This document shows positions 3,054 to 64,000 of a stretch of DNA of 64,000 nt, piece by piece. The translations under genes were made by a program, and so were the position numbers. Within the stretch, counting starts at the first letter, position 1; each line of letters starts with the position of its first letter. The stretch spans positions 186,001-250,000 of the forward strand of contig NZ_JSYL01000002.1 in NCBI RefSeq assembly GCF_000812865.1. Reading direction: 5' to 3'. This DNA comes from Kaistella jeonii. Its GTDB lineage: Bacteria > Bacteroidota > Bacteroidia > Flavobacteriales > Weeksellaceae. Under the pieces are notes generated by a model. The model had not been told where the DNA came from and ran no database searches. It was given only the letters and a program-made list of their open reading frames with translations.

Positions 3054-4199
3054 ATGTTTTCAACACCTCAAAAGCAAAGAATTGCATTATCATCCTATTT
3101 CTTTTTATCTGGACTTTGTTTTTCTACCTGGGCTTCCAGAATTCCCACCATCAAATCTATTTTTAATCTTACAGAAGGAGATTTAGGAAATCTTCTAATG
3201 ATCATGCCTGCAAGTGCCATTGTTGGAATTCCTCTTTCTGGCTGGTTGGTTGCAAAATATGATAGCAGAATTCCTTTGCAATTAGCGAGTGTACTATTCC
3301 TTTTGTCTTTATTTTCAATCGGTTGGGGATTTTCCTTGATTGGACTTGTAATTTCTCTTGTATTATTCTCAATTGCGCTCCGAATTATTAACGTCGCAAT
3401 TAATACGCAATCACTCTCGATACAGCAAAAATTCAAGAAAAGGATCATGGGAAAATTTCATGGCGTCTGGAGCATTGGTGGTATTGCCGGCGTACTTTTC
3501 TCAACAATTATGCTCAAATATGAAGTCTCGATCTTCTGGCACTTTTTGATGATCATGCTTTTTGGGCTTTTGATAATTATTTGCATGTTTCCTTTCCTCA
3601 TTAAAAATGATAAAGTCAAAACAAGTAATCCTTTCAAATTTCAAAAACCCAGTAAATACATTTCCCTGTTAGGATTCATGGTCTTTTTCGCTGCAGTTTG
3701 TGAGGGCGGAATGTACGACTGGAATGGCGTTTATTTAAAAGAAATCGTAAAACAGGAAGTGTTCACTTATGGGTACTTACTATTCATGGTTTGTATGACG
3801 ATTTCCAGATTAACCATCGATAATTTGATGAGTAGATTTGGCATGCAAAAACTTTTCATTACAAGTTCAATCCTGATCATTTCCGGAGTTCTGATCGCAA
3901 TAGTATTTCCCTTCCTTGTTCCGGTTCTTATTGGATTTTGCATGGTTGGTTTTGGAGTTTCCGGCCTTTTTCCTATGACTTTTATCCTCGCTGGGAAAGC
4001 TAAAAAATATTCAGTTCCCATTGTGATTTCCATTATCAGCACGTATTCTACGGTGGGTATGTTTTTAGGACCACCGATTATTGGTTATCTTGCAAGTGCG
4101 TTTGGATTGCAGAAAGCATTTATCACATTTATTGTCGCGGGAATCATGTTTATTCCACTTTCTAAAATGGTTTTTGATCATTTAAAGAAAACGAACTAA
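3054..4199 (+). CDS. MFS transporter (YbjJ/FucP-like)
   Basis: An inner-membrane major facilitator with about 12 hydrophobic segments over 381 residues. The loop after TM2 carries LVAKYDSR, a degenerate form of the MFS motif. The second half opens with CEGGMYDWNGVYLKE, an acidic segment typical of the sugar-permease/YbjJ group. I start it at ATG 3054 rather than an upstream TTG at 3045, because that TTG lies inside the -7 box. It is a single gene divergent from ruvB. The substrate is unknown; hutI downstream is separated by 221 bp with an inverted repeat. Confidence 0.8.
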   Translation: MFSTPQKQRIALSSYFFLSGLCFSTWASRIPTIKSIFNLTEGDLGNLLMIMPASAIVGIPLSGWLVAKYDSRIPLQLASVLFLLSLFSIGWGFSLIGLVISLVLFSIALRIINVAINTQSLSIQQKFKKRIMGKFHGVWSIGGIAGVLFSTIMLKYEVSIFWHFLMIMLFGLLIIICMFPFLIKNDKVKTSNPFKFQKPSKYISLLGFMVFFAAVCEGGMYDWNGVYLKEIVKQEVFTYGYLLFMVCMTISRLTIDNLMSRFGMQKLFITSSILIISGVLIAIVFPFLVPVLIGFCMVGFGVSGLFPMTFILAGKAKKYSVPIVISIISTYSTVGMFLGPPIIGYLASAFGLQKAFITFIVAGIMFIPLSKMVFDHLKKTN

Positions 4200-61117: not shown

Positions 61118-62872
61118 ATGTTTCGTACGCACACCAACGGAGAATTAAACTCCCAAAATATTGATCAAAAAGTCACCCTTTCCGGCTGGGTTCAAACCAT
61201 TCGGGACAAAGGTTTTATGATGTGGATCGATCTTCGCGACCGGTACGGAATTACGCAATTGGTATTTGATGCAGACAGATCTTCAAAAGAATTACTGGAA
61301 TCTGCTGGAAAATTAGGACGCGAATTTGTGATTCAAATTGAAGGAAAAGTAATTGAACGACAAAGTAAAAATCCTAAAATCGCCACCGGAAATATCGAAA
61401 TTTTAGTGGAGAAACTGACCATTTTGAACGCCTCAGAAGTTCCACCATTTACCATTGAAGACCAAACTGATGGTGGCGAAGAACTTCGTATGAAATACAG
61501 ATATTTAGATATTCGTCGTAATCCGGTAAAAGACAAATTGATCTTCCGTCACAAAATGGCGCAGAAAGTCCGCAACTATTTATCAGAACAAAATTTTATT
61601 GAAGTTGAAACTCCGGTTCTTATTAAATCAACTCCGGAGGGAGCGAGAGATTTCGTTGTTCCAAGTCGTATGAATCCGGGACAATTTTATGCATTGCCAC
61701 AATCTCCACAAACATTCAAACAGTTGTTAATGATCGGTGGAATGGACCGTTATTTTCAGATTGTAAAATGTTTCCGTGATGAAGATTTAAGAGCCGACCG
61801 CCAACCGGAATTTACACAGATCGATTGTGAAATGGCATTTGTTGAGCAGGAAGATGTTTTGGAGATCTTCGAAGGAATGACCGCAACTTTATTGAAAGAT
61901 ATTGCCGGAAAAGAATTCGGGAAATTCCCAAGAATGACTTTCGCCGATGCGATGAAAAAATACGGAAACGATAAACCGGACATCAGATTCGGGATGGAAT
62001 TCGTGGAAGTAAACGAATTGGTGAAAGGAAAAGATTTCAAAATATTCGACGAGGCAGAATTGGTGGTAGGAATCAATGTAGAAGGTTGTGCAGAATATAC
62101 GAGAAAACAAATCGACGAATTGATCGATTGGGTAAAACGTCCGCAAGTTGGCGCAAACGGAATGATTTGGATCAAATTCCAAAACGATGGTGTTGTTACT
62201 TCTTCCGTCAATAAATTTTACAACGAAGAAGACTTAAAGAAAATAACAGAAAAATTCGGCGCGAAAGCAGGAGATTTAATTTTCCTAATGTCCGGAAACG
62301 AAAATAAAGTAAGAACTCAACTTTCCGCTTTAAGAATGGAATTGGGGAACAGATTAGGATTAAGAAATCCAAAAGAATTCGCACCACTTTGGGTAATCGA
62401 TTTCCCATTATTAGAATGGGATGAAGAAACTAACCGTTATCACGCAATGCACCATCCGTTTACTGCACCAAAACCGGAAGATGTTCATTTATTAGAAACC
62501 GATCCAGGAAAAGCAAGAGCAAACGCTTACGATTTAATTCTAAACGGAAATGAAATTGGTGGTGGTTCAGTAAGAATTTTCGATAAAGATTTACAGGCGA
62601 AAATGTTTAATCTTTTAGGATTCACCAAAGAAGATGCAGAAGCACAATTCGGATTCTTGATGAATGCATTCCAATATGGCGCACCTCCTCACGCAGGTTT
62701 GGCTTTAGGTTTTGATAGATTGGTTGCAATTCTTGATGGAAATGAAGTGATCAGAGATTACATCGCTTTCCCAAAAAATAATTCAGGACGGGATGTTATG
62801 ATTGATGCGCCGAGTTCGATTGCGGATGAGCAGTTAGATGAATTGGAGTTGAAATTGAATTTAAAAGCATAA
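61118..62872 (+). CDS. aspS: Aspartyl-tRNA synthetase
   Basis: Charges tRNA(Asp). 584 residues of the bacterial class IIb type: anticodon-binding OB fold (about 15-100, [20 protein letters not shown]), catalytic core with motif 2 around [19 protein letters not shown], the bacteria-specific GAD-type insertion (about 275-425) and motif 3 in [14 protein letters not shown] single-gene unit followed by a terminator. Confidence 0.97.
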
Positions 62873-62916: not shown

Positions 62917-63200
62917 TTACAATCCTAACAATTTGTAAAGTTCTTCCTTTTTATTAACAGAAACAGATATCGATTTTCCGTTCAGTAATTCCACCATATT
63001 TCCGTGAATGCTTCTTACAAAATCAAGATTCAAGATAAAAGAACGCTGAATTCTAAAGAATTTTTTGTTTTGTAAAACCTCTTCCATTGAATTAAGTGTC
63101 ATTTGGGTTGAATAGTTTTGCGATGCTGTATTAACATTCAAATAATCGCCTTGCGCTTCGATGTATAAAATTTCTAACAACAAAATTTTGATGATTTTTC
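62917..63200 (-). pseudogene. LytTR DNA-binding domain fragment of a response regulator
   Basis: The - strand frame from about 63200 to 62917 encodes a LytTR domain: EILYIEAQGDYLNVNTASQN, RIQRSFILNLDFVRSIHGNM and the ending NKKEELYKLLGL. The only start-like codon is a TTG at 63183 and there is no start signal. It is out of frame by one base with the receiver fragment upstream and lacks the usual linker, so it looks like the 3' part of a broken gene. Confidence 0.7.
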
Positions 63201-63437
63201 CTAAATAAAAACCGGCGGATTTTCTAGTGTTCGTAGAAAATCCAACCCATTTATTTTTGGCATTTCAATATCACTGAAAACAAGGTCTACCGGATTTTCT
63301 TGAAGAAAAGCTAAAGCTGTCACCGGGTTTTCAAAAATTCCCAGAATATTAAGATACGAAACTTCTTTGGCAAATGATTCTACAAGGTCTCTTCCAAGTG
63401 GTTCGTCATCGATAATGATACAATTTATTTTCTCCAT
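63201..63437 (-). pseudogene. Truncated receiver domain of a LytTR response regulator
   Basis: 78 residues: Asp10 and Asp11 of the acidic pocket (CIIIDDEP), phospho-acceptor Asp56 (LVFSDIEMP), then a stop right after ENPPVFI. A full receiver would continue through the Thr/Ser, the Lys-Pro motif and helix 5, about 40 more residues. The ATG overlaps the stop of the kinase gene (TAATG), so the pair was built as an operon. Confidence 0.75.
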
Positions 63438-64000
63438 TATTTGATTAAATTGATTATTAACTCCACTTTAAAAATATTTTTTGAACTTAGAATTTCTAAC
63501 TGAAAATCATTCGGATATAAAAGCTGAAGGCGTTTTTTTACATTTTCAATTCCGATTCCACCGTGAATATTTTCTTTTTTGTATTCTTCAAAATCATTTT
63601 TGATTACAAAAATAAAATTCCCGTTTTCAACTTTTATTTTAAGATTTAAAAAAGCTGATTCTTTTGATTTTAAACCATATTTAAAAGCATTTTCTATAAA
63701 AGTGAAAGTCAAAAGTGGGGCAATCTTTAAATTCTTACAATCTGTTTCAGTTGGAAACTCATAATTAATTTTCCTATCCGCAGAATAACGCATTTTTTCG
63801 AGCTCAAAATAGTTTTTAACAAATTCTACTTCTTTCCAAAGTTCTACTTTTTCACTGTTCGATTCGTACAAAGTATAACTCATTGTATCGGAAAGATTAA
63901 GAATCACGTCTGGAACAGCATTGTCTTTTTTAAGACTTAAACTGTATAAATTATTCAAAGTATTAAAAAGAAAATGTGGATTGAGTTGAGATTTCAAAAA
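63437..64000 (-). CDS. LytS-type sensor histidine kinase (partial at window end)
   Basis: The C-terminal 188 or so residues of a His_kinase-family (PF06580) sensor; the frame is open to the window edge, so the N-terminus and its membrane helices are outside. It has the phospho-acceptor motif SQLNPHFLFNTLNNLYSL, the N-box FIENAFKYGL and the glycine-rich GGIGIENVKKRLQLLYP. These kinases act with LytTR regulators, and the regulator gene overlaps it by one base. Confidence 0.9.
   Translation of the reverse strand, partial: FLKSQLNPHFLFNTLNNLYSLSLKKDNAVPDVILNLSDTMSYTLYESNSEKVELWKEVEFVKNYFELEKMRYSADRKINYEFPTETDCKNLKIAPLLTFTFIENAFKYGLKSKESAFLNLKIKVENGNFIFVIKNDFEEYKKENIHGGIGIENVKKRLQLLYPNDFQLEILSSKNIFKVELIINLIK

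Follow-up and report, generated by a model that had tools for sequence, protein, structure and literature searches.

Near one end of the window (the whole 64,000-nt stretch of Kaistella jeonii DNA that was analysed), a gene for a LytTR-family response regulator lies in two pieces beside the gene of a sensor kinase. Is this a broken gene, an error of the assembly, or a pair of parts still in use? The split gene occupies 521 nt of the minus strand (63437-62917 in the ORF list of all frames), and its parts and neighbours are listed in Table 1. A sequence-only reading had placed the end of the receiver after ENPPVFI and the restart of the LytTR domain 17 bp further on in another frame. The ORFs in all frames agreed with every one of these coordinates: the ORF from the TTG at 63183 to 62917 encodes 88 aa, begins 17 nt past the receiver stop and differs from the receiver frame by one. 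The similarity to LytTR begins slightly upstream of this TTG, right at the junction (GKIIKIL), and in the third frame stops occur throughout these 521 nt. In the Pfam search of the window, the Response_reg match (50.3 bits) covers only model positions 2-66 of 111, and the LytTR match (PF04397, 69.0 bits) covers positions 10-97 of 98. The receiver remnant keeps the acidic pocket and the phospho-acceptor Asp (IIDDE, SDIEMP); the half with the Thr and Lys is gone.

Table 1. Features of the split regulator locus and its neighbours in the window
Feature	Position	Strand	Evidence
aspS, convergent neighbour, one flank of the apparently acquired operon	61118..62872	+	ORFs, comparison
3′ remnant: LytTR DNA-binding domain, frame differs from that of the receiver, open from junction to stop; possible TTG start 63183	62917..63201	-	ORFs, Pfam
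Deletion junction ...PPVFI / GKIIKIL...	63193..63210	-	orthologue alignment, repeat search
5′ remnant: truncated receiver, 78 aa, ends PPVFI + stop TAG 63203-63201	63201..63437	-	ORFs, alignment, Pfam
LytS-like sensor histidine kinase (His_kinase PF06580), 3′ part in the window	63437..64000	-	Pfam, ORF

Close orthologues were collected by a scan of species genomes: Epilithonimonas bovis DSM 19482 (L068), E. lactis (L069), Chryseobacterium sp. FH1 (L070), E. xixisoli (L071) and the Go_Inlet MAG (L072/L075). In the first four, all of the Epilithonimonas group, the regulator is one uninterrupted protein of 234 aa. When the window copy was aligned with the orthologues, one clean gap of exactly 184 nt (61 codons and 1 base) was observed between PPVFI and GKIIKIL. 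These 184 nt are present in all five close orthologues, and the similarity is good on either side of the gap; the receiver part of the window copy is 97% identical in amino acids to that of E. bovis. The E. bovis locus matches the window in the order of its genes (CPBP, kinase, regulator, convergent aspS) and in the kinase-regulator overlap, whereas the window copy lacks the 184 nt and is split over two frames. To place the lost residues, we aligned the intact orthologue with solved receivers such as 2qv0 and used general knowledge of the receiver fold. The gap covers the end of receiver strand 4 with the conserved Thr region, alpha4, the Lys-Pro strand (DYLVKPV), alpha5 and the linker, and it reaches into the first residues of the LytTR domain. 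The receiver of the intact orthologue resembles those of 2qv0 (MrkE) and 6m8o; in the window, this domain ends after its first two thirds. The earlier estimate of 60-70 missing residues, with receiver helix 5, the Lys-Pro motif and the linker among them, fits this alignment.

We also surveyed 320 genomes of the family, which gave 49 strong matches (E at most about 1e-68). No internal stop was found in 48 of the 49, the sole exception being the MAG copy with a TAA, and the split form occurred in none of them. The deletion plus frameshift proposed from the sequence is thus what the comparison with relatives returned, the intact gene and the deleted bases both having been found there. From the alignment, chance cannot account for two neighbouring fragments in different frames whose sequences match consecutive parts of a single 234-aa orthologue. 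Compared with a LytTR-family response regulator, the locus lacks a complete receiver (Asp pocket, Thr/Ser and Lys), since the Thr and the Lys-Pro segment lie within the missing 184 nt, and it lacks a single frame for both domains, since a stop follows PPVFI. It does have a LytTR DNA-binding domain, though in the other frame, and its operon supplies a cognate kinase. The marks of a pseudogene of such a regulator are present as well: relatives carry intact orthologues, and the window copy has a disabling lesion.

How old is the break? At codons unanimous among the relatives, the remnants carry 12 synonymous and 4 nonsynonymous changes specific to the window, a count that the restriction to unanimous codons biases somewhat towards constrained sites. 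Under neutrality, where 75-83% of changes are expected to be nonsynonymous, 4 or fewer of 16 has a P value of about 5e-7 to 4e-5. No further stop or indel was found in the remnants. Because the changes are mostly synonymous and there is no other lesion, selection acted on the gene along most of the branch and the break came late, so the loss appears to be recent. Relaxed selection was detected neither in the remnants nor in the kinase; the dN/dS of the kinase is about 0.10-0.12, similar to the values between relatives. This lack of measurable relaxation in the kinase speaks against the pseudogene reading. Moreover, purifying selection on the remnants also fits an assembly error or fragments that are still in use.

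An assembly error, in which the genome carries the intact gene and the 184 nt were lost in assembly, is unlikely. The assembly is a draft of 35 contigs and the fragments show no extra decay, as such an error would have it. However, the contig measures 808 kb and the junction sits 249 kb into it. No repeat that would explain slippage or collapse, or of a length relevant to assembly, was found at the breakpoints: there is none at the exact join, and the only 7-nt word nearby does not match it. In addition, the lost segment is present nowhere else: a search of the whole assembly returned nothing closer than a paralogue at 34%.

Use of the fragments as two parts is less probable still. Here the LytTR fragment would be reinitiated at TTG 63183 and bind DNA as a regulator without a receiver, or the half receiver would act by itself. 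In favour of this, little of the LytTR domain is missing, no stop interrupts its frame, and the 17-nt spacing from stop to TTG would allow coupling. LytTR regulators that lack a receiver are known from the LytTR Regulatory Systems (LRS), for example in Streptococcus mutans (PMC6193735), and the 3′ fragment is likewise a LytTR domain without a receiver. In LRS, however, the partner of the regulator is a membrane protein encoded by an adjacent gene and not a response-regulator remnant, whereas the neighbours of the window fragment are a histidine kinase gene and aspS. Furthermore, the fragment goes back to a deletion in a single genome and has no counterpart in any relative, its LytTR domain has lost its first residues, and translation would have to start at a TTG. 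The further idea that the deletion freed a reinitiated regulator acting without phosphorylation, so that the acquired two-component system would be rewired and not lost, is highly improbable. Programmed or transcriptional slippage fusing both frames into one shortened protein is also highly improbable; in its favour is a T5 run just ahead of the stop (GGTTTTTATTTAG, reverse strand). There is no tandem slippery heptamer, and a -1 site was sought by eye with no convincing candidate. Even a fused product would lack alpha4, the Lys strand and alpha5, and the relatives need no frame shift.

The kinase is a complete ORF of about 386 aa that continues beyond the end of the window (L064:2941-4101), with a PF06580 match of 84.2 bits. 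Its stop and the regulator start share one base (TAATG), likewise in relatives. Both the intactness of the kinase and this overlap had been read correctly from the window. The same reading suggested a search for other LytTR regulators in the genome, and two further LytTR proteins and one further LytS-like kinase were found. This second kinase (C2:740394) and one intact LytTR regulator (C2:742828) are near neighbours and presumably form a pair; the other LytTR protein (C1:220311) has no kinase directly beside it. That the window kinase would have lost its partner is plausible, although the genome also encodes these two proteins, only one of which has a kinase of its own close by.

The sequence-only reading had missed the probable acquisition of the operon and the lesions in other species. 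The CPBP-kinase-regulator operon, apparently acquired, spans window 62917-64000 and L064:2421-4951. The window, E. bovis, Chryseobacterium sp. FH1 and E. xixisoli share the arrangement recQ, CPBP protease, kinase, regulator, aspS. The window aspS is up to 90% identical to that of congeners and 78-79% identical to those of the Epilithonimonas genomes tested, and the window genome belongs to a different genus from Epilithonimonas. Against the Epilithonimonas set, dS is 0.43-0.76 for the three operon genes (both fragments of the regulator included), whereas it is 1.15-2.0 for aspS and recQ compared with the same genomes. In the kinase tree, the window kinase is nested in the Epilithonimonas clade (support 99/97). 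A close copy of the operon was found in none of 35 congeners. In the congener G030 and in G017, aspS and recQ are direct neighbours separated by about 130 nt, and the operon is absent. Because the dS of the operon is low relative to its flanks, the kinase tree is discordant and aspS and recQ adjoin without the operon in G030, the operon very probably came from an Epilithonimonas-like donor and entered between aspS and recQ. The simplest reading would be recombination through the conserved flanks, and the direction of transfer is likewise inferred. The most similar congener copies (G033 and G009) have receivers only 46-52% identical and lie at other loci. In G033 (L065:679-12000), the distant copy lies between a putative IS110-type transposase gene and a very large helicase/methylase-like gene, as it might on a mobile element. 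In G009 (L066:2-4311), a distant kinase-regulator pair directly follows a putative lantibiotic dehydratase gene. Our search of the literature found nothing specific to a CPBP-kinase-LytTR operon.

The window is not the only place where this operon is damaged. In E. xixisoli (L071 about 3160-3240), a 5-nt deletion frameshifts the CPBP gene. In the Go_Inlet MAG (L072 about 441; same as L181, G289), the regulator has an in-frame TAA, which may be a sequence error at 7x coverage. The MAG contig ends inside the operon. Thus, three of the six close operon copies carry a single lesion, different in each; these lesions suggest that the operon is dispensable to its hosts, although the copies are few.

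Taken together, the feature is very likely the gene of a LytTR-family response regulator that recently became a pseudogene, disabled by one internal 184-nt deletion and frameshift in an operon that was probably acquired and seems non-essential. The CPBP protease, kinase and regulator genes would have arrived by recombination between aspS and recQ. A single deletion took the second half of the receiver, starting at the end of strand 4, together with the linker and the beginning of the LytTR domain, and left the remainder of that domain out of frame. The expected product would be an unstable 78-aa half receiver; the regulator would have lost its function, and the intact membrane kinase would be left without a cognate regulator to phosphorylate. 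The event itself is ordinary pseudogenisation. For annotation, the regulator gene of this strain is to be marked as a pseudogene and its kinase as an orphan. More broadly, the CPBP-kinase-LytTR operon seems to be mobile between genera of the Chryseobacterium group, and the single, different lesions in several hosts suggest that its benefit depends on the host.
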